Of a stretch of DNA of 64,000 bases, positions 8,161 to 63,416 are shown one piece after another (the first letter of the stretch is position 1; each line of letters opens with the position of its first letter). Origin of the DNA: Phlegmacium glaucopus. Its lineage: Eukaryota > Basidiomycota > Agaricomycetes > Agaricales > Cortinariaceae. The stretch covers positions 137,208 through 201,207 of the forward strand of contig MU130558.1 of NCBI GenBank assembly GCA_015039465.1, read 5' to 3'. The translations under genes were made by a program, and so were the position numbers. The notes under the pieces were generated by a model. That model did no database searches. It saw nothing but the letters and a program-made list of their open reading frames with translations, and had not been told where the DNA came from.

Positions 8161-8169
8161 TGCGTTCGT

Positions 8170-9390: not shown

Positions 9391-9399
9391 CGACAAATC

Positions 9400-15195: not shown

Positions 15196-15549
15196 TAAAC
15201 GTTGTTGAGACCGGAAAGGAAATCGTGACTGGATATTTCTGATTATTATCATAGTTCGTGTCATTTATCCAGATGTGTATATGTTCGAGTTAAATTGTAT
15301 TTGGGTGTCATGTCAAGCCAGATCCATCTTGAGTCTGAAGGTCCTACAGCTAGCAACTCTGCAGCGCAGAGAACACCCAGCATTATGAATCAATAGTGCT
15401 CGAATACATGGCCAAACCAAGCGTTCGGAGATGTAGGCCCGCGAACATTGTTGCGACTCATCGTGTTCAAGCTCTGGTTTCCGTTGGCACGTCCTCCTGA
15501 TGTTGTATTTATATAAGCCTCCTCAACAGCCAACTTGTGGTTTAGCATT

Positions 15550-15850: not shown

Positions 15851-15930
15851 CTACAATACAATCCATATCATCAATGATATATGTGCTACGTCGATACTGT
15901 ACTTTTATCCGGATTCTAAACAACAACACT

Positions 15931-27771: not shown

Positions 27772-28524
27772 ATGCTGCAGTTGCTGCTGTTTACGTGCAC
27801 ATGGTGCTGTTTATGTGTACATACTGCTACCTATCCGTGGATGTTGCTGCTTATGTGTACATGTTGCTGCTTATGTACACATGTTGCCGTTTATCCGCGG
27901 ATGTTGTTCCTTATGCGTACAACCTGCTGCTTATCCGCGGATGTTGTTGTTTATGTGTACATGCTACTACTTATCCGCGGATACTGCTGTGGATGTGCAC
28001 ATGCTGTTGTTTATCCGCGGATGCTGCTGTTTATGTGCACATGTTACTGCTTATGTGCACATACTGCTGCTTATTCGTGGATGCTGCTGTTTATCCGCGG
28101 ATGCTGCTGTTTATGTGTACATGCTGCTGTTTATGTGCACATACTGCTGTTTATTCGTGGATGCTGCTGCTTTTGTGCATATACTGGTGCTTATCCGCGG
28201 ATGTTGTTGTTTATGTGCACATGCCGCTGCTTATGTGCACATACTGTTGCTTATTCGTGGATACTGCTGCTTTTGTGCATATGCTGTTGTTTATCCGCGG
28301 ATGCTGTTGTTTATACGTACATGCTACTACTTATGTGCACATACTGTTGCTTATCCGCGGATGTTGCTGTTTTTGTGTACATGCTGCTGTTTATGTGCAC
28401 ATGTTGTCGTTTTTGCGCACATACTGTTCCTTATCCGCGGATGCTGCTGTTAATACCCATATGCTACCACTTATGTGTACATACTGCTGCTTATCCGTGG
28501 ATACTACTGTTTATGTGTACATAC
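27772..28524. repeat. 20-bp minisatellite with two unit types, about 37 units
   Basis: Tandem 20-bp unit of consensus ATGYTGYTGYTTATNNNNNN. The last six bases are usually one of two palindromes or near-palindromes: GTGCAC/GTGTAC (type 1) or CCGCGG/CCGTGG (type 2). Types are interspersed along the array. All three forward frames stay open for over 600 bp, because 20 bp shifts the frame each unit and no unit frame has a stop. The predicted Cys/Leu/Tyr-rich peptides are therefore likely a by-product, not genes. Confidence 0.85.
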
Positions 28525-28552
28525 AAAAAAAAAAAAAAAAAAAAAAAAAAAA
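28525..28552. repeat. Poly(A) run of 28
   Basis: A homopolymer directly at the end of the minisatellite. Similar runs of 27-28 nt occur at 36,398-36,425 (A) and 53,954-53,980 (T). Confidence 0.95.
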
Positions 28553-29330
28553 GAAAAGGTAACAAGAAAAGAAGAGCGTCGACAGGAGAGAAGTAGTAAG
28601 AAGGAAACTGTCGCGCATGAAGAAAGAAAAAATAACAAGATGTATCGGAGTAGGAATCCCATATTTATGACGAGAAAACATGGTCCTATCCATCAAGTCA
28701 AGTTAAGTAAGAATGGGGGGTTGTTAGTAGTAGAGTCACCTTAAGGTCACTTAAGGAAGGAGTTCAAGCGAAAAAGACGGGAATTGACAGTTAGATAGGG
28801 ATGACAGTTAACGATATCAGAACGACTTCTGAGAAGGAGATAATAGGTAGGAGTAGGAGAAGGAATTAGGGAGATTCAAGCGAAAAGACGGGAATTGACA
28901 GTTAGATAGCTCCAGAAACGACATTCGGTGGATTAGACTAGTCTAGACTAGTCTTAACCAGTCTAGACTAGTCTAAGACCAGTCTTTAAAATAGTGGGGT
29001 TTACCGTCATTATGTCGGTTAAATAGACTGGTCTTTCTGGTCTAGTCTTAAAAATGGTGGGGTTTACCGTCATTGCTCGGTTAAATAGACTGGCCTAAGA
29101 CTGGTCTAGACTACTCTAGACTAATCTAGGTTCAGACTGGTTAAAGGTTGGTCTTAGACTGGTTAAAAGACTCGTTTAGACTGGTCTTAGGTTCGTCTTA
29201 ACTCAATCTAGTTCGAATCCTCTTAGTGGACTGAAATGATCTTTTTATTATATTAGTATACTATAAGTCTACCGTTACGGAACAACGGTAGTTTTAGCAC
29301 ATAAAACAAGTTACGCTCCCCAGACTAGTG
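28553..29330. repeat. CTAGACTAGTCT-rich cluster with a tandem duplication
   Basis: 28,930-29,220 is full of the words GACTAGTCTAGACTAGTCTT, GACTGGTCTAGAC and similar. Inside it, a block around GTGGGGTTTACCGTCATT is repeated twice (28,995-29,037 and 29,053-29,094). It looks like a decayed palindromic element. No coding potential. Confidence 0.55.
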
Positions 29331-30220
29331 TACTGGTAAAAGAAGAAGGAACAATAAAAAGATCTGTAAAATGTCAAAGTGTGAGAGAAAAGAAGAGAAG
29401 GCAGTGTACATAGTCCAATAGCAAAAATATATCGACTCCAAAGGCATGTGGTCATGTCAAAAATGTGAAAGGTCCTGAGTCAACACTTGAAAGGCGCAGC
29501 CTTGTTCCCGAGAAAATACTACTTGCCCATGATCCCACATCGCACAGCCTTGATAACACTTGACACTCTGTGAGAATAATCCTCTGCTGCTGATTCATCT
29601 GCAATTCCTGCTTAGTCGTGATCCTCCTGGACTTCCTAAATTGTCATAAAGAGGGTGGGAAGGCTTCAGGTACCGCGTGAATGATGGTTTTGGCAGTGAA
29701 TGATAAGATAAGAGGTAGATGAGTGAGGATAGGGGACTGAGTGTGATCCAGGAGTGAGGTATGGCAAGATAGATAGCTGAGGCAAAGACTTGTGGGTCCA
29801 TAGCCACAACAACAATGACAAAGCCTTTGACATAATGGGAGATGTAGCTGATGCATCCATAAATGGGCCGTTCTTGAAATGATGGGCCATAGATGCGATC
29901 AAACACGAGCTGATGACCAATGCGAATAGTAGATTGATCGCTTTGTTGTATCACTAGCCAAGGGACAAACGGATGGTAGATGTTAAGGAGCATATCAATA
30001 GTGTAAATGATAGACAACATAGTGGAGGACATTGAGGATATGATGAGTGATGAGGATGTTAACGTTGAACAAATGATTTTGTTGACCAGGAACGCGATTC
30101 AGGGCTGCTTCCAAAATAGGTAAGTGAATTCAAAGTCCGCTTATTTTCATGATGGCAACTTTTAAGCTTTGTTCTCACGCTACCAATCAGTATTGGTGCA
30201 CGATACCGACCTTTCACAAT
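29330..30220 (-). repeat. Repeat family R1, copy 1
   Basis: About 0.9 kb, also found at 61,620-62,480 (opposite strand) and 63,417-64,000 (same strand, cut by the gap). On the minus strand each copy keeps an ORF of about 145 aa that includes IDMLLNIYHPFVPWLVIQQS and ends GSPGGSRLSRNCR. Shared non-coding DNA follows it. The ORF is kept open in all three copies, which suggests an element-encoded or multicopy gene. I do not recognise the protein family. Confidence 0.7.
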
Positions 30221-32139: not shown

Positions 32140-34117
32140 CAAACTATCAATATCATCAGAACAATATTGCAGCAGAGATGATTTATTAACCAAAAAAACA
32201 TGAGTAAAAAACACCAACTGCTAGTCAGAGATTGATACTTTATAGTTTTAAATGTTTCCCTTATTTATTTAAATATTATTTCTTTGAAAGAAATAAAAGT
32301 TAAAAGTGACCCATCAGCAAGGTAATTTGTCGACGAAGTCGACCGCTAGTGACCAATAGTCTTACATAAACACTTTCCCCGATGACAGCACATCAGTCTG
32401 TCCCAAACAATTGTGCTCAATGTCGACAATGTTGAGCTCAAGAACTGGTCTTTGCGTTGCGACTTACAGTGCTTAGATCAATGAGATATTGTGGACTGCT
32501 AATTTATTAATTATGGTCCGTGGCTATGCAATGGGTGCTATGTGTAAGCTAGTTGGGTGAGAGCACACGAAGTGTGCTTCGGACCCGAATGACTCCAATG
32601 ACGAGAAAAGGGGTTCGATATGAGACACGTGGGCGGGTGGGCCACGCTTCGGCATAAGGACCGAGGTTTCGTGTTTGTAACGTCGTAGTTGGGGTTTTCG
32701 GATCAAGAAAAGGCACTGTCACTAGTGACATGCCGAAGCTTAGGGAGAGGAGGGTGGGTAAAAAGGAAAGGAGTAATGCAGTAGGGGCTTGACCTAGAGT
32801 TATTGTCGAGCGCTTCTATGCTAGCGAGGGTGAAGAGAGAGAGTGAAAGTGCACGTGATGCACTTCTCGTCTTCTCAAAGACCTTATTCTATCTCTTTGC
32901 TTGTACCTTGCTTTGCTGTAGAAACGAACTTAACTAATTGATATTTTTCTAGCAGTCTTTTAGTATATAGTAATGAACCATTAGGAATATATATTGCAAT
33001 TTTTATAGGAACCCAGACTCATGTTTTTACCCTATCCCAGCGCTGATGAAGATATTGGTAACTGACGTTGAGGGCACATCGATGACGAGCTCGGTGGGAG
33101 CTCGTCGCCAGGGACGTTGCCAAGCCATTTGTCATTGTTCATCAGCAAACTCGGGGTCAGCTTACTGGCACCGGACAGCACCATAGAACCATAGAAAAGG
33201 TTCTTTTGTTTATAGTGCTGTCCAGTGTCATGGTAACACTATCCGGAAACGGCTCGATGCTATACAGCACTATGGAGTGCTATATAGGGCTAGGTTCATT
33301 CTTTCCGTAACTAGTTAGACTGGCCTAGATTGGGCCTAGACTAATGATATTCCAATAGCATCACAAATAACATAAGAAAATTGTTAAAAAATTTATATTC
33401 AACTAAGTCAAAACTAAGTACTAGTTGTCTAGATATCATAATATATACTACTTATAAGTTATACTACTGTCTATCGTCATTTACAACTAAGAAGATGAAA
33501 TTAGAAAATAATAAATTACGATACAGAGAGAAAGAAGGGGCCCACATGTGTCAATGCCACCACACCCCATATGCCACAGCTGTTGCCGAATGTCACAGAG
33601 CCCACTGAGACAAAAAAAAAAAGCCCCCCTGCCGTATGTCGTCGTCATTATATGTCATGGTCATCCTATGCCGTTGGTCATCGTACATGTGTATTCGCCG
33701 TTGTATGTGCATATTCATTGTTGTACAGGCATATTTATTGTTGTACAGGCCATATTTGTTGTTGTATGGGCCGTATTCATTGTTGTATAGGCCATATTCA
33801 TTGTTGTATGTGCATGTTCCTTGTTGTACATGTGTGAAACGGGTAGGCTGATATGGGTATTGGTAGCGTGACGTGGTGACGTGGAAGGGAGGAGGTGGTG
33901 GTGGGTCGTCGTGGGGTGGTGACGTGGAAGGGAGGTGGTGGTGGTGGGTCGTCATGGGGTGGTCGTCGTTTGTTGTGGTCATTTGAAGCTAATAAGTAAA
34001 TTAGTAGAGTGAAATTTAAGATTTAAAAAAAACAAACCCACCCCCCCCTAGCGAGGGGGTAGAGCCGTTGTTAGCCGTTGTTCAATGTGGCAGGGGAAGT
34101 GGTAGTGGTGGTGTCGT
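32140..34117. other. Non-coding, with short tandem repeats
   Basis: No gene is recognised. 33,180-33,300 contains several copies of 'cagcacta/tagtgctg' words in inverted orientation. 33,714-33,835 is a small minisatellite with a unit of about 20 bp around CATTGTTGTATAGGCCATATT (about six units). 33,880-33,970 contains two copies of a GTGACGTGGAAGGGAGG block. Confidence 0.45.
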
Positions 34118-35424
34118 TGATATGATTTAAATCTGCATAAGCATGGTTTTTGCAATTTTTATCTATTATTTCAGCATAAATATTAATTAATGCACCAATA
34201 ACTGGCTAATACAACTGATAATAGACAAGGGAATCAGAGTCGTTTACCCTACAACTGCTGATTAGACCTATTACTGTGTGACTTAAATGCATATAGTTAA
34301 TAAGTGTGGTCAATAGACTATCATTTGTTACACTACAAATTGCATGTCCGGATTAAAACCAATAAATCCATGAATATCCTTATAGACTTGGCACAGGAAA
34401 AGTTAAATAAACAATATTGGGTTAGCAAATGTCATGGGGTGTGATTGTGGAACAACAGAATATTATTAATAAATATTCAGGGGAAGGTTGGTGCCCTAGC
34501 AACAGTGGAAGCAGAATAACCAAGATAGTGGAACCATGTGATTGTGTGGGAATCATGATGATTAAGGATAGGGGGAGTGCTGAACAATCATAAAGATTGT
34601 TTCCAGGCACAATAGGCACAGTTACCACCAAGAGGGGTGGAAACTACCTAAAATTAGGAACATGGGGCTAAAAATAGAACAACCCCTATGTTTCCAGGAA
34701 CAATGAGTGCACATGGTGCCAGAACCAAAGTAAGGGTACCAGGAACCAGTATATCTATTTTTGGACATTATCTATTTTTAAATATCTCAAATGTATAAAA
34801 TACCTCCCAGGGTTTGTAAATAGACAGAAAATTGGATTCTTTCTTTCCCCCCCTCATTTGCAACCTAGTACAGCTCACTGTCTTAGACATTGAGCAAGAA
34901 CACTTGTCTTTGAGTAGTGGACTTGAAAATAAATCAGTTTCTCAGAGTTGTTTGACTTGTTGCAATAATTGTTGAATTGTTGTAAAAGTTGTTGTTGTGT
35001 TAAAGTCATAGCAGAAGCAAGAGGGCTTCTTGTGTATGCAATTGTGTTAAAGTCATAGCAGAAGTTTGAGTCTTCTTGTGTATGCAATTGTGTTGAAGTT
35101 GTAACAAAGTCTTGGACTTTTGTGTACACAAATTGTAAATCAATCAGTAAAGTCTTAGGAATTCTTTGACTGATTGTTGGTGCAAGCCATAAATTGCAAA
35201 ACCACTTAAAAGTTTGATCATCCTTCAATTGATCCAAATTATTGTTGTTGTTGTGTGTATTAGTTGAAGTGAATTTCAAAGTCTTGGAAAGGTTATACTT
35301 TCTAGAAAACCCAACTTGCATTATTAAGATTGTATAAAGTATTGATTGAGTTATTGTTTTGAGTAGAGATTTTTATAATCTTGAAAATACACCTTTTCTC
35401 AACAACCTCTGTGCAGTTACATCA
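34118..35424. mobile_element. LTR-like repeat, copy 1 (1,307 bp)
   Basis: Near-identical to 59,925-61,210, in direct orientation. It starts TGATATGA and ends GTTACATCA, so it has TG..CA ends and TGAT/ATCA terminal inversion. Flanks are TCGT and TCAT, a possible 4-bp target duplication with one mismatch. It has no internal transposon genes, so it is best read as a solo LTR or long non-autonomous element. Confidence 0.65.
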
Positions 35425-35823
35425 TCATCGTCAGCAGCATTCTGACGTGGCGAAGGTGCGGTGTGGGTTGTCGTTAGTGGGTTGTCATTAGTGGGTGGGT
35501 ACATTGTTGTGATATGTTGTTGTTGTTGATGTTGTTGCTGTTGTACGTCATCGTCATCCATGCCTAACTTGCCATTGTACCTGTAGATTTAAATAAGTAG
35601 AGTATATATGTATATAAATAGAAAGTATAAAGTACTTACCCCCCCCCGCAATGAGGGGGACTACGCGTCGCTGTTGTTGTTCATGTTAGGTCGTCAGGTG
35701 GCGGTGGTGGTGGCGGTATGGAATGACGAACTTGGTGGGAACAAATTTTAGTCCCTGCGCACGGACTTTGTTTAGGGTTGGTTTATTTAACTTAACAAAA
35801 AAATATGTGATGTATCTAATGTG

Positions 35824-36383
35824 TGTTACATTCCGTCACACGTTACTCCGGTCCGACTCCGTCGGAGTTGTCTCCGGTGGTCCGTACTCCGTTCCAGTAC
35901 TTTCCCTTGCCTCCGGATTTACTCCTTCTATGTCCAACTCCGAGACTTCTCCGTATCATTCTGGCTCTTCCGACGATATCCCAAACACCTTACCACATCT
36001 TCGTCACTACCACTATTTCTTTGTCATCACATTCCCACTATCAGTCAGCACACCAGCCATGGATTATTCACCCCAAGAATGCAGGACCTTTCAGGAGCAG
36101 GATGCAGCACATTATATTTATACTTTATATTTTGGTTGCAATTCCTTTTATTATTTAAGTACTTGAACTTGTATGTTTTCCAGCAGTTCAAATATCAACA
36201 TAGTTTCCTCCTCCTAGTCTTCCTCTAAGTCACTGAGGTCTTCCGTCTTATTACTTCTTCTTCCGTTCCGAAATCAGGACACCTTAGGAGCTGGGCGGCA
36301 CAGCACACACGCTGAGGCCAACGTCCTTTCCGGGTACTGTTCCGGAGTAACTCCAACGTGACTTCCTTGTTTTAAACTTAACA
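35824..36383. mobile_element. Probable solo LTR, 560 bp
   Basis: It begins TGTTACATTCC and ends AACTTAACA, giving the terminal inversion TGTTA/TAACA expected of LTRs. Near the ends, CACGTTACTCCGG and CCGGAGTAACTCC form an inner inverted repeat. No clear target duplication. Confidence 0.5.
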
Positions 36384-36397
36384 TGATGTCATTATGG

Positions 36398-36425
<28 letters not shown>
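36398..36425. repeat. Poly(A) run of 28 at the left edge of the mirror block
   Basis: The complement-only match to arm A begins right after this run, so the run marks the junction. Confidence 0.95.
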
Positions 36426-36428
<3 letters not shown>

Positions 36429-38720
36429 ACGTTTCAGGCACTAGATGCCGTCTGAGGCCTCCACACGTGGATTACTAGGGTCGCGTAGAACAAGTATTGC
36501 CACTCAACCGATTTGTGTCGTGCTATCGTCTTTGGATAGACCTAGCCTATGATGTCATCGAAGGCACCTCTTCTCCTGGTAGCTCTAGACCTCTAAGAAG
36601 TCGTGGCCTTTATAAGTTGTAACATAAGAGGTGAATAGTGGTCTGTCCGGGTATAACCCGGGTATATAAGTTGTATAAGTTGTACTGTTACTTTGGGGTA
36701 AAGACGCACATAGAAAAGATCTTGATGAGCAAGACCTTTAGAAGAACTGGCCTGGGGTTGTGAAAACCTTGCTTCACGTCGGAACGAGAAACCTGTTGGA
36801 AAGACATATTCTTCAGTGTAAACTTATGGACAGAAGGATTGCAGAAGTGGACTGTAAGGGAAGCACGATTGTCTTTACCGATGTCAACGACATGAAGGTG
36901 GGAGATTCGAAAGGAAGCTAAGACGGGGCCTTTGCCGGTTTGGAAACCTGGTTCATCCTGGTTGGCTCCTACTCTATAACCTCAAGAACCTCTTTAGGTA
37001 GTTCCGGGACCCACTTGGACCTTTACATCGTTAAAAGTTCGTTCGGTACCTCCTCGAACCATAAGCGCGCCAGTTGTGGCTGCTGCGGAAACGAGCACAG
37101 TTCTTATGTTACCTGCGCAAGCACTTACTCGTACCCCCGGTTAAAGGTCCATAGTAGGGTAAAGTTGTTCTTACCTTACCAGTATCTAGCCACCCGATCA
37201 CAAGGGTGATAAACGAGCAAGGATACATCACTACTTCGGTAAAGATCCTGACCTCACCGATATAGTGATGGAGTGCCCTAAAACGCTGCTGTTGACGATG
37301 CCTTATAGTTCCATGTGAAAACGGACAAAGACGACAGATGAGCCAGATCTGAGTACAAACACCTTAGGTCTAATATGTAACTATGAGGTTGTTCCGCTGT
37401 TGCAGTTTTGGTTTCTTCTGTACGTCAACGACCGTCGACTAGATTGCCTCAAGCGGCATACAGATATTGTGCACAAAGAAAGAAAGAGAAAAAAAGTACA
37501 GCACCATAGGAGAATATCTTTTTGTTCGGGCAGCCGTATGGGCAACTAAAGTTTCTGTTCAAAAACCTGAACTTTTCCTTCCACCTGCTGAAGGTCTGCT
37601 CTAAGTTACGCATAGAGCTACTTGTCTTTCAGGTCAACCTTGTCGTCCGGTGCCGTGACTGGCTACGGTAGTTGAGAGAGCACTGTCTCTATTTACTCAT
37701 ACAGAAAGTTACTTTAATGAGAAGTACGACCCGCAAGTTCCTTAAAATGGTACATCAAACCTACTGTTCCATAAAGCGTATGTAATAACTACAAATACTG
37801 ACGGGATTATCACCGAAGATCTAGTTTCTACGTTGGTAGCCGCATCCTCAGCGTCCTTAAAAGCCCCACTCGCGGGATAAATAACTTGAACTATTGTTAC
37901 CTTTTATTACAAGGAACGTCGGACAGCCTTATCGGTAACGTCCATGTCGAGAACGCCACGAACGGTATTACGCGCGTTCACTCAGCCTTGTCGGCTTATT
38001 CTACGGATGTTCGCGAATGTGCTTGATCTCTTTGTTGTCCTTGAACTACGGTGCTCTCGACGTGACGTCGTTCAGCTTCGGGATGTTTGCCGCAACCCAC
38101 TTTAATTCCGGGTTAAGCTACCGAATTAAGGTCTAAAATTCGAAGAGTCACTTTTGGAACCGAACAAGCGACTATGTACCTTGAGCCATTCTAGGTAGCG
38201 TAACGTCTTTTAGTAAAAAAAGGCAGAGCGACTAGTCACATGGAGTCAAGGTGTTGCTTCGACACTGTAAACGTCGACTTAAGCTTTTTCATCTTTGTGG
38301 ACGCTTAAACGGTCGCCATTCTCGATCATTTTAGCTGGTCGACAAAAACCAGATTGGTGCCTGATGTCTATATATTCCGATCTCAACGAAACCGCGCCCG
38401 CCGGAGGCTGCGCGAGTGCGTCCCAGACTCTCTGATACGTCGCTCGTAAGTGAATACTATTTGCAACAACTCTAGCCTTTCCTTTAGCACTGACCTATAA
38501 AGACTAACAATAGTATCAAGCACAGTAAACAGGTCTACACATATACAAGCTCAATTTAACATAAACCCGCAGTTCGGTCTAGGTAGAACTCAGACTTCTA
38601 GGATGTCGATCGTTGAGACGTCGGGTCTCTTGTGAGTCGTAATACTTAGTTGTCACGACCTTATGTACCGGTTTGGTTCGTAAGCCTCTACATCCGGGTG
38701 TTTGTAACAACGCTGAGTAG
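36426..38720. other. Mirror block: complement of the gene D locus without reversal
   Basis: Read left to right, this stretch is the base-by-base complement, not the reverse complement, of arm A from about 13,185 to 15,475. Bases 37,397-37,416 (CTGTTGCAGTTTTGGTTTCT) are the exact complement of 14,131-14,150 in the same direction. 38,191-38,200 (CTAGGTAGCG) complements 14,928-14,937. The offset stays near 23,260 over the block with small indels. Equivalently, it is the plus strand of 42,800-44,760 written backwards. It differs from both other copies at scattered bases, so it derives from a third copy. ORFs in it are meaningless: introns run CA..TC instead of GT..AG. Confidence 0.92.
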
Positions 38721-39080
38721 CAACCCTATCACATTAACATGAGCGCCAAACCCGGAGAAGCCAAAAGTTCCGGCATTAGATGCAGATCAACGGAACAGAT
38801 CATAGATTCCGGGGTAAGCCCTAGGACCAATGCTAGGCCAATCCCAACCAACCCAATCCAATCTTTTCAGTGTTTGGCTTCACTGCCCAACACCAGCCAA
38901 TCAGTGTTCAGTACACTCCGTCTATCTTAATAGCATGTTCAGTAGTCGTTTTGGCCCCTAAAGGGTATCAAACAGTATCAGTACAGTGTGTTTTAATATC
39001 ATCGGATATCAGTGCAGTGTGTTTCAATATCAGGAATATCATAAGATATCAGTGTAGTGATATTGATATCACTCAATATC
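38721..39080. other. Non-coding with palindromic ATATC words
   Basis: 38,960-39,080 is rich in GATATC/ATATCA words (GATATTGATATCACTCAATA), like the end of a small inverted-repeat element. It separates the mirror block from the normal inverted copy that follows. Confidence 0.4.
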
Positions 39081-40390
39081 AAAGCGAAGGCAATTTTATT
39101 TCAAAGTCAGCGGAAGCGCCGACATTGGGGTCTGTCCGCCTCTACAAAATCTCTCGAAACTAACCGACGTCGTCTACAGAGCCCTAACAATCCAGTTAGA
39201 AAGGTTCCAGTCGATTGGGGGAGCACGAACGACCCTTCCATCCACCCACAACTGCATGTGCCTGGATCAGCTTTAAAATAAAAGTCATGGCGTTACAAGG
39301 GATATGCGGAAGTGAGTTCCCCATTGGTTCCCCAGATAGTATCGTAAGATATCTGTTTGACCTTTGATCCGATAGAACTCGGATCTGTGGTGCTGAAGTC
39401 AATGGCCCACTCAAACCAGTAGATTAGAGTCATTAGACAGACTAAGGCGAACTATATAGATGGCTCTGCTGAAGTCAAGCTAGAGCCGATTCCCGAAGTG
39501 AAATAAGCGTAGTAATCAACACCCCAAAGTAAGAGCAGTGCAATAGTATGATTTCGCGTTTGACCTCGGTGAGCTCGTGAGGCAAACGTGAGCAAGTACA
39601 AATACAAGCACACTACATATATAATGGTTGTATGCTACGGAATAAACAATAGAGGTTGTGGAAAAATGAGTAACCGAATAAATGAAGATGAACTTGAAGG
39701 GGGATGAATGTAATTTAAGAAACTTGTGGGTGAGGGCCATCGCTCCGCGTGGCATATACGAGTCCCTTCAAATGAAATTATACTGGTATTCTTATAGTGT
39801 CTTCGTGAGCAGGGAAAACAGTGAGTAAATTGTTTTCGCGCGGCAAACAAGGCCATCACCATCAACACATGCAATCACGGAAGTTACCGGCAAGTCTTGC
39901 GTTACCTTTGAAGGCTCCATCCGCTTATAAGAACGAGCCCCTAAAGGGGACTCGTAATGTACCTGAAGACAGCGGTAGCTCGCACAAGCTCCGGGAATTC
40001 CAACAACCAAAGCAGAACAGACAGGTGGCAATCAAATGTCACCGTTACCTTGCGATTGTCTGGTTTCTATTGTCGGGCCTGGCAATCCTACTTCTCCAAC
40101 ATGGCAACATCTGCAGTTTTTCGGACATACACAGTCAACCAATTTGGTTATCCTATTTTTTTACATTGCCGCGAACGCTCAGGGTAAAGAAACTCATTTT
40201 TATTCAGGAATATCGAACCAAGTGTACGGCGGCGAAGAAAAATGCCAGGAGTTGGCTTGAAATGCCCCTGGAATACCATCACTGCTTTAAATCCTCTTAT
40301 CATTATTTCGGTTTATACGCACTTTGTGCGGTTGGACCTGGTGGGACGGCGTGGAGATTGCGAAGATGTTTTTAGAGGACAGTGTACATT
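39080..40390. repeat. Third partial arm copy, inverted relative to 11,950-13,180
   Basis: Ordinary reverse-complement match to arm A (for example AACTCATTTTTATTCAGGAA at 40,190 against 12,065-12,090). It has an insertion near 39,420-39,950. Its left edge corresponds to arm position about 13,180, the same point at which the mirror block begins. Confidence 0.75.
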
Positions 40391-42660: not shown

Positions 42661-43088
42661 AGCGTCATATCAACATAGACAGAATTTGAAGAACATCGTG
42701 GCTCCAACTTGTTCGACCCGGAAGTAGAGAGTCCAACCAGAAATATGAGTTTAAACCGCAAGTTGGCTGTTGAGGAGGCTTATGTAAATCCAACATCAGG
42801 AGGACGTAACAACGGAAACCAGCACGATGGGTCGCAACAATGTTCGCGGGCCTACATCTCCGAACGCTTGGTTTGGCCATGTATTCCAGCACTGTTGATT
42901 CATAATGCTGAGTGTTCTCTGCGCTGCAGAGTTGCTAGCTGTAGGATCTTCAGACTCAAGATGAATCTGGCTTGACACCCGAATACAATTTGACTCGAAC
43001 ATATACACAGCTGGATAAATGACACGAACTGTGATAACAATCAGAAATATCCAGTCACGATTTCCCTTTCCGATCTCAACAACGTTTA

Positions 43089-44674
43089 TCATAAGTGAAT
43101 GCTCGCTGCATAGTCTCTCAGACCCTGCGTGAGCGCGTCGGAGGCCGCCCGCGCCAAAGCAACTCTAGCCTTATATATCTGTAGTCTGTGGTTAGACCAA
43201 AAACAGCTGGTCGATTTTACTGGCTCTTACCGCTGGCAAATTCGCAGGTGTTTCTACTTTTTCGAATTCAACTGCAAATGTCACAGCTTCGTTGTGGAAC
43301 TGAGTTACACTGATCAGCGAGACGGAAAAAAATGATTTTCTGCAATGCGATGGATCTTACCGAGTTCCATGTATCAGCGAACAAGCCAAGGTTTTCACTG
43401 AGAAGCAGGAAATCTGGAACTAGGCCAGCGAATTGGGCCTTAATTTCACCCAACGCCGTTTGCAGGGCTTCCACATTCTGCAGTTCAATTTTCTTGCCAT
43501 CCAGTTCCCGTTGTTTCTCTAGTTCGTGTAAGTCCTTGTAGGCATTTAATTCGTCTGTTCCGACTCACTTCCGCGCAGTACCGCAAGTACCGCAAGAGCT
43601 GTACCTGCAAGGGATGCTCCGATAATCTGCAAGGAACCAACCATTACTTTCCATTGTTATCAAAGTTCAATAAATAGGGCGCTCACCCCGAAAAATGATG
43701 CGATTTCTAGACCCAAGGTTGCATCCTTGATCTAGAAGCCACTATTAGGGCAGTCATAAAGATCAATAGTGCATGCGAAATACCCGTCCATCCAAACTAC
43801 ATGGTAAAATTCCTTGAATCTCCAGCATGAAGAGTAATTTCATTGAAAGACATACCCATCTAGATCTGTCTGGAGACTGGTGATGGCGTCGGTCAGTATC
43901 GTGGCCTGCTGTCCCAACTCGACGTTCTGTTCATCGAGATACGCATTGAATCTCGTCTGGAAGTCGTCCACCTTCCTTTTCAAGTCCAAAAACTTGTCTT
44001 TGAAATCAATGGGTATGCCGACGGGCTTGTTTTTCTAGAAGAGAGATATCACGACATGGAGAAAAAGAAAGAAAGAAACACGTGTTATAGACATACAGCG
44101 AACTCCGTTAGATCAGCGGCCAGCAAGTCCATGTCTGCTTTGGTTTTGACGTTGTCGCCCTGTTGGAGTATTGTTGTATAATCTGGAATTCCACAAACAT
44201 AAGTCTAGACCGAGTAGACAGCAGAAACAGGTAAAAGTGTACCTTGATATTCCGCAGCAGTTGTCGTCGCAAAATCCCGTGAGGTAGTGATATAGCCACT
44301 CCAGTCCTAGAGATGGCTTCATCACTAGGAACGAGAAAAAAATGGCAACACCAGCGCACCGATTTATAACCATTCCATTCTTGTTGAAATGGGATGATAC
44401 CTGGAAATTGGCCCCCATGCTCATTAACAAACGCGTCCATTGTATTCTTGACACGAGCAAAGGCGTCGTCGGTGTTGACCGCGCGAATACCAAGCTCCTC
44501 CATGGCTTGCTTGAAAATTGCTACATTTCCAGGTTCACCCAGGGCCTTGATGGATTTCTCCAAGAACTCCAATATCTCATCCTCGGTTGGTCCTACTTGG
44601 TCCAAAGGTTTGGCCGTTTCCGGGGCAGAATCGAAGGAAAGCTTAGAGGGTGGAAGTACAGCAACTGTAGCCAT
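43089..44674 (-). CDS. Gene D', intact inverted copy of gene D
   Basis: Starts MATVAVLPPSKLS and ends with the same AASIHL tail. Exon borders match those of gene D one for one, including the 13-nt exon and the splice uncertainty after the hydrophobic segment. Coding differences are scattered substitutions that keep the frame (for example QTDLDG in place of KADLAE before the 13-nt exon). Two open copies separated by many silent and non-silent changes suggest selection has kept both. Function is as inferred for gene D. Confidence 0.68.
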
Positions 44675-45940
44675 TTCTGTTAGCACGAAGGGAATGTCAG
44701 GTGAAGACGTTAGGAAGACAGGTATTCAAATGTGACTTATACAGAACATTTGTCCAAAGAGCAAGGCTGCACTTCGTTCCAAAAGTGTTGGGGGTCCGGT
44801 CAAAAAGATTTCAGGAACGAGTAGCTATAGAAAAAATGCTCGCAGGATGGGGTTTCATTGCCATGTTGAATATGTTGAATATATGGGCCTGTCTGATCAA
44901 TGTCTGATGATAAGTGAGAATACAATGTCGAATATTTCTGGTGCTGTAGAATCTCCAGATCTTGAGGGTCCTCCTCTCCAAGCTACCGTAGTATCCAGAT
45001 AGGTTTCTGCTATCGTGCTGCGTTTAGCCAAGTCACCGTTATGAACAAGATGTGCTGGGATATCTCCGGAGTCTGCCGTAGATCTCGGGCTTTGCACTGC
45101 GGAAAGCAATTTTATTTCAAAGTCAGCTGGGTCTGTCCGCCATCTTCCATTCTACCAAATCTCTCGAAACTAACAGACGTCGTCTACAGAGCCTAAGAAT
45201 CAAGTTAGAAAGCTTCTAGTCGATTGGGGGAGCACGAACGACTCCCCCATTCACCCACCACTGCATGTGCCTGTAGCAACTTTAAGATAAAAGTCATGGC
45301 GTTACAAGGGATTATGCGGAAGTGAGCTGCCAATAGTATCATGGGATATCTATTTGAAAGTTTATCCAACAGCTGCTTTTCATCTATTTACGCATACTAA
45401 TATTACTAAGGACCTTGAATCAACCGTTGTCGAACTATCAGCACAAATCACGGCATATTTTCCCTTCCGACATTGAGCGTTCTCGGAATATCTTACTTTT
45501 AGAAAGAGCCATAGGCGTATCAGGGGTCGGTGAGGAATTTGAATGGCTCAATGTTCAACGTTCAACCTTAGATTAGGCTTGTATGCTGATTCCTGAAAGC
45601 ACAAGGTTCCTTATTGACGATGCTGGCATATTGGGAGGACGAGGATCCAACTAAGTGTCTATGCTCGATGCTGCCTTGAACCTTAAATCGTGTACAAAAT
45701 GTTGAAACCCCATGGGAAATTTGAGAGAGACCCGCTGAAACCAAAATCTGAAGTTAGTTTCCTGCCAAAACTCTCAATCACGAGATATCAAATTTGTTAA
45801 CGTTCATGCAACATCCATGGGTTGTCCGAAAATACGTAGGCGTAGAACATTAAGTGTTATCCATTCCGCAGTCAACATAAGACTTTGTGTTGTTAAATTG
45901 GTCATTGTACATGGTAGTAGATATTCTTCTCAAATGATCA
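44675..45940. other. Arm B intergenic
   Basis: Matches arm A upstream of gene D and downstream of gene C. Arm A's 11,350-11,640 and 11,700-12,900 are missing here, which joins the two flanks near 45,340-45,420. No gene. Confidence 0.55.
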
Positions 45941-46813
45941 TCAGTTGTGAATGTGGCCCGCGTAGTCGTTCAATGCTTGTTGTACGTTTGCGCAGCCTTT
46001 TTTGACAGGCTTGAGCTCGGCGGTCAGTTCCTGCATTAAATCAATGTTACCATAGACTACTAGATCCTGTAAGGAAATTTCATCACCTTGATGGTTTTCT
46101 TGATGTCGGTAGCTTTCCCAAGTACATCTATGATATGATTCGTCTCGTCAACTTTCTATAAGTGTCGCGTCAGCAAAAGAATTAACAAGTCGAATTAAAA
46201 AATTCATGGCGCACAAGGGTCCAGACACTATTGAACTCGTTGGTTACACCCTGGAAGCCATCTAGCGACGTAGCATCCAAGGGATTCTTGTTCTACTTAT
46301 CGATGAAAATTAAACTGTGAAAGACTCAGAAAGAGGCATTAAGATCAAACCGTTAGGATGTCCTGCAGAGCTCCAACAGCCTCTTGGAGCTGTTCTTGAG
46401 TCACAATCGGTTCGACAACTGCCTCAAGTATCAGGACAAAATCTGCATATACCAGAAAACTTATAAGGTGATATATGCGAAAATGCGAAAATCACATACC
46501 CCCAAATTCGGCTGAGATTTTTGTAGCTACATCGCGGGCGGCGTTGTTGTCTTTGCGGAGATTCTAAGGCAAAAGAGTTTCATGACTAGTTGCGGGATGG
46601 CGCGTAGAATAAAATTACATCTGAGAATCCCTCGAAAAATGCTGGGATCTTGCTAAGGATGTCGAAGTCTGATTGGTATTTCTTGGCGACTTCAACTGCC
46701 TGCTGGTTGGCTTTGTCGACACCCTCTTCAATATCGACAGACTTGGTAGCAAGACTATTCAAGTCGTCGACGATTTTCTGCACAGCAATAGGGTCAGCAA
46801 GGGGGGATGCCAT
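45941..46813 (-). CDS. Gene C', intact inverted copy of gene C
   Basis: Starts at MASPLADPIAVQKIVDDLNS, six exons with the same borders as gene C, ending HIHN-stop. Substitutions are scattered and the frame is kept (for example a Lys-Gly-Cys in place of Glu-Gly-Cys in the last exon). As in arm A, C' lies next to D', here downstream of it on the plus-strand map and about 1.3 kb away. Confidence 0.7.
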
Positions 46814-48428
46814 AGTCAAAATCAAGAAGCTGAATGTCGCAAGTCTGAGGAATGTATAGCAATATATACGAGTTACGGCGCACGTGGTAAAGTGCAAGAT
46901 AGTTGGATGGTTTGGGTAGACCAGCGTTCCAATTCCATCCAAGATCCTCAAGGGAAAACGCCGTTATGGACATGATAAGATGTGATTGTAAATTTCGACG
47001 CTTCTACTACCTTTTTCCATTCTTTCTGTCACTTGGTTATCAATCTACTATAAAAATTTCCAGATGGATTCTATATTTACGGTCTACTGGTGAGGTACTC
47101 CTGTGGAAAAGAGGATCCTCGAGGTCCAGACTTCGGGGATTCTGCAAAACCGACTGCTCGGGACCTTCACATATATATTATATGTATTCTATACAGTTCT
47201 ATACAGTCGCTGACAAGCAAACTCATTTTTATCTGGCTTCAGATCTCAGGATCCGCAATGAGCATGCGCTCGTACCTCGCGCATGCTCATTATCTGATAA
47301 GAATTAAAATATTAAGGCATCACCCTATTCGGGTTTGATACATCATAGATACAAACACGAATAAACTTGAACCCATCTCAGGGTCGGATTCTGACATGGC
47401 ACCCCTGAGAGTGTCGTAAGATATCCGTTCGACCTTTGATCTGACAGAACTCGGATCTGCCGTGCTGAAGGCAATAGTTCACTCAAATCAGGTTGGAAGA
47501 ATCGGATGTGTCGACGATCTACAGGGTTCAAGTTGATTTGTCTCCTCGTCCTTTCCGCTGCCCACATCCTCTTCCACTGAGTTTTGCTCATGGCAGCCTA
47601 TATGAAACGATAGTTGTTACCTTGATTGTTGTTTTCCTGATATCGTTTGTCGGCTCTTCTGGTTCTCAATATTATATAATCTACCCGAGCTCGAGTAGAC
47701 CGGTAACCGAATAATGAGATGTCCTTGCTAAAAAAGAGCATCCGTTGATTTCCAGGGTGTCAGCTGTAACTTCCTGTATGATTATGTGTCCGACACTGAC
47801 TGGGTTGGTTTAACCGAAAATGTGCATGCTGGCCAAAGTATGGGGTAGGAAGTCAGAATCATCTCCTACCCATCAAGGTTCGCGAGATTGTGTGTGCAAG
47901 CTTCATATGAAGGAAGGGTATAGCAGCAGCTGGTCTTCTTTGATTGTTTGAACGTCCTGTAACGTAAACTATTCTCTTTGAGCCGTTTGCTATATCCCAG
48001 TCATCGAAAGATCTCGGCAACGACGCTTGGAGCGTCGCGCCAAGATGGCGGTTCCTTTAAAGTAGACTGGGATTGCCCAGGGGACATCGGGTTTAGATGG
48101 GTTCGGATTGGACTGGAAAGGTCTTTGAGAGTATGCCGACAATGATCCTGTTCCCTAACTGAGAAAAATCTTGATTTATAAACATGGGAGACGCGTCGTC
48201 TCTCAACGTCTCTGATGCCCACAAGTTCTGAGTCGGCCTCGTCTCGGCGTTCCGCGTTTTTCAGAGAGGTATCTGACATAAAGGGTGGATGTGAAAAGAT
48301 GGTATCCGAAAGAAATGTACCCGAGTCTGGGAACGCGCCGTTTATACATCACGTGACGTGACGTACAAATAATAAAATCTTCATAAATTTTTAATTAAAA
48401 TACATGTGGATTCAGCGAACAGCTAATT
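46814..48428. other. Intergenic; one short ORF of unknown status
   Basis: Contains one copy of the TTCTGTCGGATCAAA-type dispersed repeat (47,395-47,470, reverse). A 92-aa minus-strand ORF lies at 48,001-48,279 with no recognised motif. Nothing else is seen. Confidence 0.35.
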
Positions 48429-50661
48429 TCAACGAGATGTATGTGATTCAATTCCAAGAATACTGGTGCCCTTCTGCAAAACGTTTAAACAAAAAAGTGA
48501 GCAAAGAGTATCCAATCGTCTGAAACACCATCAAGAACTGACCTTCCGAGGGCATGTATGAGATATCTTGTTACATCCCCACACCTTGACCTCCTTCAAG
48601 TTCCCACAACCACCCTTGTATACCCCTTCAACCAGTACCCCTTCAAACCACACCTTCAACAGGAAATCATCTACGGCTCTACACCACCCCACATCCAGCT
48701 TCTTCAACTCACTCGCCAGCAGTCCAATCACTTTCAACGCATCCTCACCTACATCCTTCCATCCATTGATGTTCAATTCCTCCAATTGGTTTCCAGAGTG
48801 TTTCACCAAACTCTGTAGTGCTAAACTTCCCAAGACTTCATTCCGCGAGAGATCGAGAGATAGTAGAGGGGGATTCTGCCATGCCGCGAAAAAATTGGAC
48901 ACGCCTTCATCCGTCAACTTGGGCAGATGGGATAGAGTTAGAGATTGAAGTGTCTTCATATGAGGTTGAAGACCTTTGGAAAGGAACTGGTCTCCTAAGA
49001 GACTATGTTTCGAGATGTTGAGGTGGGTCAACGATTTGCCTACGGAACGCATCAGCGCTACCATCGCGCCCCCGGTGCATGACTTTGTCGGATCCGCAAG
49101 GTCGAGGTGCCTCAATCCCCCTTTAAGGAGTTTGATCTGATTGAGGAAGGAGTCGTTCATATGTCCAATTTCTTTCAAACGGAGATCTATGATCCCAGGA
49201 CAGTTTTTCACAAGACTCTCCATGCAGGCTTCATCGAAACGAGGGCTCTGGGTGATGAGGAATGCTTCAAGCTTCGGATGAGACTTAAAAAACGCCTGCC
49301 ACGCCGCGGGTCGAACGAGGAAAGGGCCAAGAAGTTCGAGCCTTTGTAAGGATGGAAGAGACGTAGTGAAAACTTTGAAAGATGCGTCATCAAGGTGTCC
49401 GCAGAAATCGAGGCGCAGTGAAGTGAGATTTGCGTTGTGGTATGCAAGTGTCTCGAGAGCAGGGGACGTTAAATCTGACAAGTTCCACAGTAAGTACGGG
49501 AGATTGTGAAGAAGCTTATATGATTGACATACTGGTGGCATCAAATAAAGCAAGAGAAGAGTTCCCAGAATCATAGAAAAGATGGACGTTCTCAGGCGTT
49601 CTGAAAATCAGGTGAGAAAGGGATACAATAAGCACCGTTTTGTACTAACAGTCCTCGATTCTTTGACAAAGCTCTGGAAATAGCTTCAACATTCAGAGAT
49701 CCAATATCTCCTAAAGCCTCGATGTCGTCTATATGTCTAGTAATGAGCTGCCGTTCATTTGTTTAGCATTGTTTTTAGGTAACAGCGGTACTTTCGCTGA
49801 CCTGGAGGCATATTGAAACGAGCGCAGGAAACTTCTTTTCCTCGAAGGTAGTGATACTCCTCTTTTCTGTCTTGCGCTTTTTCGGAGAAGCCGGTTTCTT
49901 GAAAGGATCATTGCCGCCTGCTTTCGCACATGTGTGGCAGAGAAAACCTGTACCAGAATTCGCAGCCAAGGTGTATTTAGTCTAAATTGGTTTCATGAGA
50001 AAGGGTATAGACTGCTAAGAAACGTGTAACATACGGCCGTGAATTGCTTCTCGCATACTGCACAATTCTCAAAGCTCCCCACTGGTGGCTTGGATGTCCC
50101 GTTCGACCAAAGCGATTTTGAAAGTGCAGTATAAGCATCTTCATCTTCGTCGTCACTGCCTTTCTTCTTTTTCTGTTTGGCTTTCAACTTGGCCTCCGCA
50201 GCTTTTGTCAACTTTCGTTTTTTAACTGAGACCGTCTTTTCTTCGTCTTCTTTCTCGTCTACATCCATGGCATCTCCAGCAGCATCTCCGCCCTCAGGTT
50301 CATCGACATCTAGATCATCAGAGGCATATCCAGAGACCTGAGATACATCAGCGAATTTATATGGGCGATAAGAAGGCAGTTTCTACTAACTCTTCTCGAT
50401 CTCGTTCGACGAGTACCTCTTCCACTGGCACTAGTGCTAGCTGCAGCAGTACTCGTTGTTGTTGTACTGGGACCAGCGACAGCTTGCTCATCGGTCTGTG
50501 CTTGCGTTCGCGTCCGTGCTCTTCTGGCGATAGTAGTGGGGGTAATGCCTTCTGCCTGTGGTGGTCACTGTTCAGTTAGGCGAAATCGTGGAAATGAGCG
50601 CGTTTACCTTCAAGAAATCTGTGAGTGCAGATGCAGGCCCGCGAACATTGTTGCGACTCAT
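48429..50661 (-). CDS. RAD7: DNA repair protein RAD7 (rhp7) homologue
   Basis: Eight exons: 50661-50608, 50555-50391, 50337-50035, 49981-49802, 49747-49650, 49600-49533, 49474-48543, 48473-48429. All are GT..AG, in phase, about 614 aa. The N-terminus MSRNNVRGPASALTDFLK followed by GITPTTIARRARTR is diagnostic of fungal RAD7. An acidic/lysine-rich linker follows, then a zinc-ribbon (CAVC ... CHTC) split by an intron, then leucine-rich repeats (LTSLRLDFCGHL, LQRLELLGPF, LRHLDLADP, LTHLNISKHS, LQSLTLSHLPKLTDEG, LEELNINGW, LKKLDVGWC). RAD7 works with RAD16 in global-genome nucleotide excision repair and in a cullin ubiquitin ligase. This is the only intact copy; arm A has lost it. Confidence 0.9.
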
Positions 50662-53953: not shown

Positions 53954-56552
53954 TTTTTTTTTTTTTTTTTTTTTTTTTTTGTCAATTTAGGTCTTCGGAA
54001 CGTGGTTCCATGCAGACTTTACAGGCTTTTTCTATGGACTAAACTACTGAGGCCCCTAATGCCTTTCTCCCTCCCCGCGATCTCACACTGCACTGCTGGG
54101 GTACGTCCAAAACGCACCCATCCTCAGACAGCCCAGCACAGAAACGCTGTTTGCGTGAGCATCGCTTGACATGGTGGAGTAGTGATCTGGGTTTCTTTCC
54201 GTGATTTGCACATCCAGATTGGCAGAAACACCCTCTAACTTTTAAGTACCTGACTGACATGCAGTAGGTACGATGGGTGGATCCAGGGAGACGGTGCGCC
54301 CGACGTGTTGCAGGCAGTAATAAATATTTGAGTTGGTCTTGCTGTCGATATCTTGCGCTTTCGAATTCTTGTACTGTTCTATCCTGTTCCTATTATGATT
54401 TCAAACAAGAGCGCGTTATCCATCCTGATTATTGTCTATGACTACCCAAAATTTGGACACATCACCTAGGGATGGTTGTAGCCTTCTGGTTCTACCCACA
54501 TATCTGAGCAATTCAAACATATTATCTTTGTTTGAGAAGATTGCTCGAAGGTCTCTTGATTGGCAGCCAAGCTTAGCATCCAAAGTATGTCTTTCATAGT
54601 CATAGCTAGGGCATTCAAACAGAAAATGGGTGACTGTCTCCTCAACATCTATGTGCCTGATGTCTCTGCAGCTGGCGCAAAATTTTGTGTCGGCTTTCCC
54701 AGTACGGTTTAGATATACTTTGAGCGGCAAGTGGTTAGATCGCAGCTGAAAAAGAAGACTACACTGTGCCCGGGAGAGTTCGCGTTGATGAGCATGCTGG
54801 TTCCCTGCCTTCGTTTTTCGCATTTTTGGCAGCGACGTCGCTCTACGTCGCCTCTTACACCGACTATTTGCTGTTTTATTGCATAGATAAGTCTCTGGCT
54901 ATTCGGTTGTCGCCTCTACTGTCCCAGAAGCTTCCTAAATGCCTTGGCTATATTTCGCTCGTACGATCGCCCCCTTTTCCAGAAGTACCCGGACGACATT
55001 AGGTGTTCTACCTCCCTTTCGCTCCCTTTCACCAGCGGTCACGTGTATAGTCATGCTTTTTCCATATTTGGTAATGCTCACTCGTCTAAGAGTCGTAGGC
55101 ATGTCCACTGCCCAGACCAACGTCCCCCTACGCTACACCGAATCGTTCGGTGTCAAATCGTCGCAGCTACCCTACCAGTCGCTCCTATCCAGCGACAATC
55201 ACCAGATCGAGAAGTTCCGTAACACCATTGGGCATTTTGGGTCGCTGATCATTTATATTCTTTTATCTCTCTTCGGTTACCTCAAACACTTTGTTTTCTT
55301 TATTTTTGATACATTTGCCATCGCTCCTTGATCGCTTCTCTATACCACATGTCTCCTGCCGGTCTTCGGAGCGACGACCGGTCCTCTTTCATTTATCGCC
55401 CACTATCCCTGATGTTTTGTCTCCCCATTTTGCCTAGTCCTTCTTGGACTCCTGTTTCATCATTTTGATTTGTTTTATAACTACCCATGTGCAACTTAGC
55501 CATGTGATCTCCCCTACCTACTATAAAAACACCCTGTAATTTAGTTACAAGGGACAATAAGAAAGTATTCACCTCTCTCCCCAGAGTATAGAATTAAGTC
55601 TTGTCATCGTCTCTCTCGTCGTTCGCCTTCGTTTCATTGCGTTTTACTGCGAGTCGCCCATACAGCGACTATACTTCGTCACTGCGTCGCCCCTTCTCAC
55701 TGCGTCCCCCTGTCCCATTCTGCGTCCGCACTGCGTCTCCTTCGTCACTGCGTCTCCCCTTCGTCACTGCGTCGCCCCTTTCGTCACTGCGTCTCCCCTT
55801 CGTCACTGCATCTCCCCTTCGTCACTGCGTCTCCCCTTCGTCACTGCGTCGCCACTTCGTTCCTTCGTCGCCCTTTCGTCATTACATTGCTCCTCGTTTC
55901 GCTCGTCTCATATCTCGTCGCCCTACCTTAGTTGGAACCTTTCTGCATATACTTGACTCAGTGTTTAGGCCACCGAAGCCCCGAGCCGCATCACACCTCA
56001 GTTAGTACAGCACCTAGCGTACTGACAGTGTATCAGCGTTGCATTGACCGATATTTGTCGTAAGGGAAGCCTGGATCTATCACGTCCATTCTCCCCTTCT
56101 TGGGGACGCTTCCCACTTCTCTTCCCATTCCTTCCTAAGCGTGTGCGCCATTTGCTCTTTTAAAAGCTCTGAGTTTACTGGTAGCCTTTGCCTGAGCAGC
56201 TTTGGGAGATGGGTGGTCGCTGAAGTTGCCCCGCCGGCTGCCTTGCGTGCCTCGGTGTCCGCTCACTCGTTACTGATAACATTGCTGTGGGCAGCTATCC
56301 ACCGGACCTTGACCCTGTGGATGGTGGGTACCGGTGGTGTTCTTCCTAAGATCTTCTCAGCGATTTTGAGGAATTCCTCTGTAAGGTATGAGCCGGTCTT
56401 TGCTCTACATGCCCCAATTGACTGTATAAATGATTGACTATCTGTGTATACAGAAATCGTGCGGTCACTTAGCTGGTTCTCTCCTTTGAGGAGCCAAAGC
56501 GCCAGTATACAGCCTACTGCCTCAGCGTCCTTTGTCGAGTACTCACTATCCC
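53954..56552 (-). mobile_element. 5'-truncated LINE (Tad-like) with poly(A) tail
   Basis: The minus strand carries a LINE RNase H domain (ISVYTDSQSFIQSIGA; RWIAAHSNVISNE, which then has a stop). A C-terminal zinc-finger region follows (CASCRDIRHIDVEETVTHFL, FECPSYDYERH; 54,823-54,416). The 3' end is a 27-nt poly(A) (T run at 53,954-53,980). It is flanked by an 11-bp duplication, GTACTTTCTAT, at 53,944-53,954 and 56,553-56,563. The reverse transcriptase domain is missing, so this is a dead 5'-truncated copy inserted into the TPR array. Confidence 0.82.
54825..56040. mobile_element. LTR-like insert inside the LINE, 1,216 bp, 5-bp TSD
   Basis: Flanked by GCATT at 54,820-54,824 and 56,041-56,045. 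Removing the insert and one GCATT rejoins the LINE reading frame exactly. Inside are a TATA-like CTATAAAAAC (55,522), an AATAAG signal (55,555) and a CGTCACTGCGTCTCCCCTT tandem array (55,745-55,860). These are LTR-like features. The inserted sequence begins TTTGGCAGCG and ends TATCAGCGTT, so TG/CA lie a few bases inside its ends. Confidence 0.7.
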
Positions 56553-57311
56553 GTACTTTCTATATTTGCTATACTCTTGAGGGTGTCTGGATGTTCTGCA
56601 CCAAGCAGCTTCTTCATCATGTCTGTAACTTGACCCTGCAGCTGCTCTGCCCCCATTCCATCTTTCCTGATCACCATATGTGCTTGCTAGATTTGCCACA
56701 CTCCCAAGGGTGTCTGGATGTTCTGCACCAAGCAGCTTCTGCCTCATGTCCATAACTTGAACCTTCAGCTGCTCTGCCTCATTCCACCTTCCCTGATCAC
56801 TGTATGTGCTTGCTAGATTTGCCATACTCTTGAGGTGTCTGGATGTTCTGCACCGAGCAGCTTCTTCCTCAGGGCCACAGCTTGAACCTCTAGCTGCTCT
56901 GCCTCATTCCACCTTCCCTGATCACTGTATGTACTTGCTAGATTTGCCATACTCTTCAGGGTGTGTGGATGTTCTGCACCAAGCAGCTTCTTCATTGTGC
57001 CTATAACTTCAACCTGCAGCTGCTCTGCCTCATTCCATCTTTGTTGATCACTGTATGTACTTGCCATATTTGCCATACTCTTGAGGGTGTCTGGATGTTC
57101 TGCACCAAGCAGCTTCTTCATCATGTCCATAACTTGAACCTGCAGCTGCTCTGCCTCATTCCACCTTCCCTGATCACCATATGTGTTTGCTAGATTTGCC
57201 ATACTGATGAGAGTGTCTGGATGTTCTGCACCAAGCAGCTTCTTCATCATGTCTATAACTTGAACCTGCAGCTGCTCTGCCTTATTGCACCTTCCTTGAT
57301 CACTGTATGTG

Positions 57312-57697
57312 CATCAGAAAAAAATAACCTTGGCCTGGCTGGCTCTGGCTGCCCTGGCCTGGCCTGGCCAGCCCTGAACATCTTTGGCTAGGTTTAAAAA
57401 TCTGAAAAAATGCTAACAAATCACAGAAATATTTATAGCACCCAATTCCAAAAAAAGTAAACAATTACATAAGACAGATGCTGAGATATTAAAGATATTA
57501 AATTATTTTAATATCTTTAATATCTCAGCATCTGTCTTATGTAATTGTTTACTTTTTTTGGAATTGGGTGCTATAAATATTTCTGTGATTTGTTAGAATT
57601 TTTTCAGATTTTTAAACCTAGCCAAAGATGTTCAGGGCTGGCCAGGGCTGGCCAGGGCAGCCAGAGCCAGCCAGGCCAAGGTTATTTTTTTCTGATG
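57312..57697. mobile_element. Foldback element, 386 bp, nearly perfect arms
   Basis: CATCAGAAAAAAATAACC at the left pairs with GGTTATTTTTTTCTGATG at the right. The pairing continues almost without mismatch to the centre near 57,504 (TTAAATTATTTTAA). It interrupts the TPR array. High arm identity suggests recent origin. Confidence 0.85.
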
Positions 57698-57957
57698 TGA
57701 TGCTAGATTTGCCATACTGATGAGGGTCTCTGGGTGTTCTGCACCAAAGAGCTCCTTCATCCTGTCTATAACTTGAACCTGCAGCTGCTCTGCCTTATTC
57801 CATCTTCCCAGATTACTGTATGTGTTTGCTAGATTTGCCATACTCATGAGGGTGTTTGGATGTTCTGCACCAAGCAGCTTCTTCATCATGTCTGTAACTT
57901 GACCCTGCAGCTGCTCAGCCTCATTCCATCTTCCCTGATTACTATATGTGTTTAGGG

Positions 57958-62888: not shown

Positions 62889-63416
62889 NNNNNNNNNNNN
62901 NNNNNNNNNNNNNNNNNNNNNNNNNNNNNNNNNNNNNNNNNNNNNNNNNNNNNNNNNNNNNNNNNNNNNNNNNNNNNNNNNNNNNNNNNNNNNNNNNNNN
63001 NNNNNNNNNNNNNNNNNNNNNNNNNNNNNNNNNNNNNNNNNNNNNNNNNNNNNNNNNNNNNNNNNNNNNNNNNNNNNNNNNNNNNNNNNNNNNNNNNNNN
63101 NNNNNNNNNNNNNNNNNNNNNNNNNNNNNNNNNNNNNNNNNNNNNNNNNNNNNNNNNNNNNNNNNNNNNNNNNNNNNNNNNNNNNNNNNNNNNNNNNNNN
63201 NNNNNNNNNNNNNNNNNNNNNNNNNNNNNNNNNNNNNNNNNNNNNNNNNNNNNNNNNNNNNNNNNNNNNNNNNNNNNNNNNNNNNNNNNNNNNNNNNNNN
63301 NNNNNNNNNNNNNNNNNNNNNNNNNNNNNNNNNNNNNNNNNNNNNNNNNNNNNNNNNNNNNNNNNNNNNNNNNNNNNNNNNNNNNNNNNNNNNNNNNNNN
63401 NNNNNNNNNNNNNNNN
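62889..63416. other. Assembly gap (528 N)
   Basis: Run of N. It lies between two inverted copies of repeat family R1, which is probably why the assembly failed here. Apparent ORFs through it are artefacts. Confidence 1.

Follow-up and report, generated by a model that had tools for sequence, protein, structure and literature searches.

A backwards-spelled part of the gene D locus in the Phlegmacium glaucopus assembly: a probable unreversed-complement extension of a gap edge

How can a genome assembly contain a block that is the complement of another locus read in the same direction, when we know of no route by which DNA is copied as a parallel-orientation complement? The question is raised by a 64,000-nucleotide stretch of DNA from the agaric Phlegmacium glaucopus (the window; contig MU130558.1, here C198), in which an earlier note, made from the letters alone, had described a 2.3-kb block that complements one copy of the gene D locus without being reversed. 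Two ordinary reference copies of this locus, recognised by self-BLASTN, genome search and seam test, are present in the window: arm A (12585-15464, plus strand) and the inverted arm B (42824-45334, minus strand). Both arms sit in a large imperfect inverted repeat (8161-15544 and 42752-49826, with pieces matching at 62-90%) that contains the gene D locus. The block (36426-38720) was compared by BLASTN in four forms with the window, and the whole window was compared with itself in four forms. As the note had claimed, the complement form matches arm A in the same direction, with 36426-38722 complementing 13188-15464 without reversal (89.6% over 2309 columns); the same stretch is the plain reversal of arm B at 42824-45099 (91.7% over 2308 columns). 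The offset from arm A ranges from 23,245 (36433 against 13188) to 23,258 (38722 against 15464), in agreement with the 23,260 or so given previously, and the two sample pairs cited (37,397-37,416 with 14,131-14,150, and 38,191-38,200 with 14,928-14,937) are exact complements in the same direction. The alignment of the block's forms to the arms, proposed in the note as a check, yields no ordinary match: within the 64-kb window, the only hit of the forward and reverse-complement forms is the block itself, and the block matches its relatives solely as complement or reversal. Having no reverse-complement identity to arm A, the block does not belong to a genuine inverted duplication; the ordinary reverse complement of arm A appears only from 39092 onward.

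Judged from its sequence, the block is a third, diverged copy of the gene D locus. A three-way alignment of the block with arms A and B contains 1993 identical columns, 68 gapped columns and seven in which all three differ, and columns unique to one copy number 97 for arm A, 90 for the block and 45 for arm B. Within a 428-base stretch used for codon-position comparison, five of the nine block-unique differences fall at third positions, and the third copy carries stops in the last quarter of this stretch. Genome searches recover only the block itself when the block is the query. With arm A as the query, the hits are arms A and B, a match of 75% and a match of 55 bases on contig C187, and a single match of 36 bases; no further complete ordinary copy of arm A was found in the assembly-wide search. 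The suggestion that the source was a real third copy is upheld: the copy is inverted, and its other part starts at 39086. Elsewhere in the window, 6253-6868 and 15922-16536 are duplicated pieces with 94% identity, the second of which overlaps a queuine tRNA-ribosyltransferase-like frame (15931-17073; Pfam TGT) that matches part of the Phlegmacium glaucopus protein BYT27DRAFT_7146988 at full identity from end to end.

A likeness to reversed text could in principle arise by chance, through low complexity or approximate palindromes: sequences match their own reversals over-frequently, according to the available text of PMC11099658, and six of the 78 complement or reversal matches considered below are of a repetitive or self-reversing kind. 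The block, however, shares about 90% identity with two other loci along 2.3 kb, and another reversed segment aligns with a distant one over 1307 columns at 99.2%. A 6-mer orientation score, which makes no use of homology and was trained on C198 after removal of the fold under test and those next to it, also flags the block as backwards. Given a match of more than 2 kb, an identity near 90% and a backwards 6-mer score, chance likeness was rejected for the block, and its probability is practically nil.

When 36426-39085 is reversed in place as a string of letters, the sequence forms one alignment with arm A (36789-39722 against 15464-12585; 2981 columns, 86.5%) and one with arm B (36789-39324 against 42824-45334; 2559 columns, 90.7%), so that collinearity is restored across the seam at 39085/39086. 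As spelled, no alignment crosses this seam, and the matching part starts only at 39086, where the ordinary continuation of the third copy (39086-39722, minus strand) begins; within it, 39092-39722 is the reverse complement of 12585-13191, and 39086-39324 matches 45102-45334 forward. When the end of the reversal is moved through 39060-39111, the score against arm B peaks at 39084, while that against arm A is almost flat, with its peak at 39096. The block of the earlier note is therefore real, but its right limit of 38,720 was too short, as the affected unit (36426-39085, with 36426-38722 as its homologous part) reaches 39085, which explains the earlier observation that the normal inverted copy ends near 39,080. 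The outer edge of the unit is the run of 28 A at 36398-36425 (plus strand), directly after which the block begins, as reported. A left limit at 35574, to which the 6-mer segment had initially extended, was considered and dropped, since a genome search with window 35425-36397 identified 35824-36383, to the left of the run, as a high-copy repeat in ordinary spelling. This anatomy suggests that a right-hand contig began at about 39086 and was extended leftward, and that the extension was written backwards.

The signature recurs in the genome, and the single case of the earlier note is not unique even within the window. Across C198:1-261000, the 6-mer score falls below zero in 4.0% of 1040 1-kb windows, and the five lowest-scoring places comprise two in the window, the block and 28294-29543, and three elsewhere on C198, near 82, 242 and 28 kb. 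Four of the five adjoin a run of at least 25 A. Complement and reversal matches bore out all five and added one place beside an N run; as the place at 82 kb was split by its A run, seven segments result. These are C198:13208-14420, which adjoins the N run; C198:28349-28861, at the 28-kb place; C198:81807-82782 and C198:82808-84048, to the left and right of a run of 25 A at 82783-82807; C198:165760-166544, the second unit in the window (28553-29337), which lies directly after another run of 28 A (28525-28552, plus strand) and in which string reversal likewise restores alignments across the right seam; C198:173633-176292, the unit studied here; and C198:242328-244126, at the 242-kb place. The first of these was identified by homology alone, its composition not being reversed over its length (-2 per kb). 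Together, the seven segments hold 9,187 of the 234,135 non-N bases (3.9%) in C198:1-261000.

Seam crossing was scored when an alignment covered 25 bases or more on each side of the contig-side seam. Compared with the rest of C198:1-261000, the seam is crossed in six of seven segments when these are string-reversed, in none of seven as spelled and in none of seven when complemented in place. The remaining segment crosses its seam, again only when string-reversed, in an alignment with sequence L030 (404 columns, 74%). All seven segments found thus align across the contig-side seam after reversal, and none does so as spelled, a result that confirms rather than predicts, because segment limits were set with the matches already known. 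Of the 78 complement or reversal matches at E <= 1e-4 in C198:1-261000, 72 link one of the seven segments to sequence outside them, and the other six (32-162 bp, 70-94%) comprise four that link two tandem arrays and two self-reversals. The window contains tandem arrays at 27782-28522 and 56556-57953, one of 20-bp-based units and one of 126-bp units.

Outer edges lie at runs of 25-28 A in five of the seven segments and at N runs, which may be assembly gaps, in the other two. An N run is also present at window 62889-63416, and window 53954-53980 is a run of 27 T with a reversal match on neither side, apparently an ordinary homopolymer. All four runs of at least 25 A in C198:1-261000 have a reversed flank, on a contig that was chosen because of the block. 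Both flanks are reversed at C198:82783-82807, and when both are string-reversed, one transposon-like repeat reaches both sides (172631-172471, the run, then 172188-171322), with about 280 bases of the repeat missing between the flanks.

Genome-wide, the plus strands of the contigs carry 157 runs of exactly 25 A and the minus strands a single one (binomial p 9e-46). Runs of exactly 24 A occur zero times on plus and once on minus, and control runs of exactly 16 A are divided evenly (21 plus, 24 minus; binomial p 0.77). As contig orientation is arbitrary, the strand bias and sharp length of the 25-A runs cannot come from living DNA, and runs of exactly 25 A mark a software pad. Longer runs, such as those of 28 A, would fit a pad of 25 followed by adjoining A, three in the case of the run at the edge of the unit. 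These observations bear on two further explanations. A real biological event that copied the locus as a parallel-orientation complement would agree with the letters as they stand in the assembly, but it accounts neither for the seam alignments that in-place reversal restores in all seven segments found nor for a run class confined almost wholly to one strand, and it must be regarded as exceedingly improbable. Alternatively, the letters could have been changed after deposition, in the copy that was analysed; string reversal preserves lengths, and a single copy was examined. One-sided 25-A runs spread over the whole genome look instead like assembly practice, which makes such a later change very unlikely.

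Beyond C198, pads look mostly ordinary, and the fault is found at some pads but not at all of them. As a blind sample, the first eight entries in the list of exact 25-A runs were used in their listed order. About 2 kb on each side of each run was searched for its best reversed stretch, and 200 ordinary 2-kb windows of C198 served as controls (median 22, 95% value 34.8, maximum 68.4). The right flank of one run, L029, scores 289, far above the controls, and that of L032 scores 71, just over their maximum. Five of the 16 flanks fall between 34.8 and 68.4 (L031 left, 67; L031 right, 51; L029 left, 51; L035 right, 48; L033 left, 43), and nine lie below the control 95% value, so that one of eight runs is clear. 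Ordinary matches in L028, L031 and L033 include normally spelled sequence to the right of the run. Such partial occurrence would be expected if only extensions derived from one read strand are affected.

Proximity to pads gives only a modest excess: among the matches listed, six of 37 reversed copies and one of 55 ordinary copies lie within 1.5 kb of a listed 25-A run (p = 0.016). The test used 107 A runs, namely 98 listed plus-strand runs of exactly 25 from contigs up to C183, together with nine from C1-C23 that are 26 to about 29 long, with longer listed runs omitted, as were matches on C198 and on contigs after C183. It drew on 22 of 25 and 39 of 55 rows for reversed copies, and on 40 of 41 and 39 of 48 for ordinary copies.

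Repeats and genes in reversed spelling illustrate what such stretches conceal. At L029 (C5:281900-285900), the longest frame of the right flank (the flank from position 2016) encodes ankyrin repeats (PF00023, 6.8e-48) when the flank is string-reversed, whereas the longest frame as spelled has no Pfam match. String-reversed, this flank has 24 matches on five contigs; as spelled, it is found at five places including itself, all on its own contig, and the other four, at C5:277-278 kb, may represent a further reversed stretch. An annotated ghost gene was also looked for with the as-spelled frame, but none of the 7992 candidates scored in a protein search matched it at E <= 0.001, and so no such gene was shown. 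The transposon-like repeat that borders the run at C198:82783-82807, 1.3 kb long (window 34115-35424 and 59922-61210), has at least 41 genome matches including itself, at 97-100%, in ordinary spelling, and at least 25 genome matches, three of them on C198 including the query, in reversed spelling. A second repeat has at least 55 genome matches, including itself, in reversed spelling, and when spelled in reverse both repeats have matches spread over many further contigs.

Taken together, the evidence assigns window 36426-39085, with a probability of about 97%, to an assembly artefact, an extension of a gap edge written as unreversed complement; the block is not a biological feature. The earlier note had supposed a contig that was complemented without being reversed during assembly or finishing. 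The seam tests and the one-sided 25-A runs strongly support that fault at that stage, which most probably affected sequence added to a contig edge inside a gap and not a whole contig. According to this model, reads would have extended the edge of the right-hand contig into a scaffold gap, the material coming from the opposite strand, and the extension would have been complemented without reversal, so that its letters stand in reverse order. Sequence added from the left and from the right would have failed to meet, and a 25-base pad, spelled A, would have been left between them. The true locus would be a third, inverted copy of gene D that continues unbroken from the extension into 39086 and onward.

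In gaps that it overfills, the gap filler PBJelly would leave a pad of 25 bases. Here, the runs of exactly 25 are one-stranded, yet they are spelled A, whereas other gaps read N, and the pad presumably reflects N turned into A in a later step. PBJelly is the somewhat favoured candidate for the tool responsible; in the available text of PMC3504050 it uses reads to extend the edges of gaps, defined as at least 25 N, and produces overfilled gaps in which the two extensions fail to overlap, a description that fits the anatomy of the unit. Phlegmacium glaucopus is, we assume, the Cortinarius glaucopus of the genome papers. Miyauchi et al. 2020 (PMC7550596) include Cortinarius glaucopus, and the available text of that paper names ALLPATHS-LG for the assembly of its hybrid genomes in general and PBJelly for patching them, others being PacBio genomes assembled with Falcon or Celera Assembler. 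PMC8480192 also includes the species and, in its available text, gives Velvet, AllPathsLG or Falcon, together with finisherSC and Quiver, as the software for its sequenced genomes. Neither text identifies the genome of this species as a hybrid assembly.

The block has no biological meaning and matters as a data fault. Because ordinary searches cannot recognise them, reversed stretches hide copies of genes and transposon-like elements, such as the ankyrin repeats at L029, and resemble lineage-specific sequence. Whether a gap-filling step in wide use produces the fault repeatably, and not just once, is close to an even question, with the balance slightly against it. If it does, many hybrid eukaryote assemblies made from short and long reads would contain, next to pads of 25 bases, kilobases of complement written without reversal, and these would be invisible to ordinary homology searches and pass for unique sequence. 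Two simple detectors are available, namely the strand bias of exact 25-A runs and a BLAST search of an assembly against its own reversed text. A literature search, in which one query was weakly ranked, returned titles and abstract openings with no apparent description of gap extension as unreversed complement.

The closest known systems each share part of the signature. Overfilled gaps of PBJelly, in the available text of English et al. 2012 (PMC3504050), are alike in that reads extend both gap edges without overlapping and the gap is given as at least 25 N. They differ in being described there and in the available text of PMC9635638 as excess or spuriously expanded sequence, with neither an unreversed complement nor an A pad in those descriptions. 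Missed PacBio hairpin adapters, as covered in the available text of PMC3504050, are likewise a strand-related artefact of long reads, but their opposite-strand subreads are reverse complements, whereas the block has no reverse-complement identity. The reversed decoys used in benchmarking, as presented in the available part of PMC11099658, share reversal without complement; they are made on purpose, whereas here the reversed letters stand in a genome assembly.
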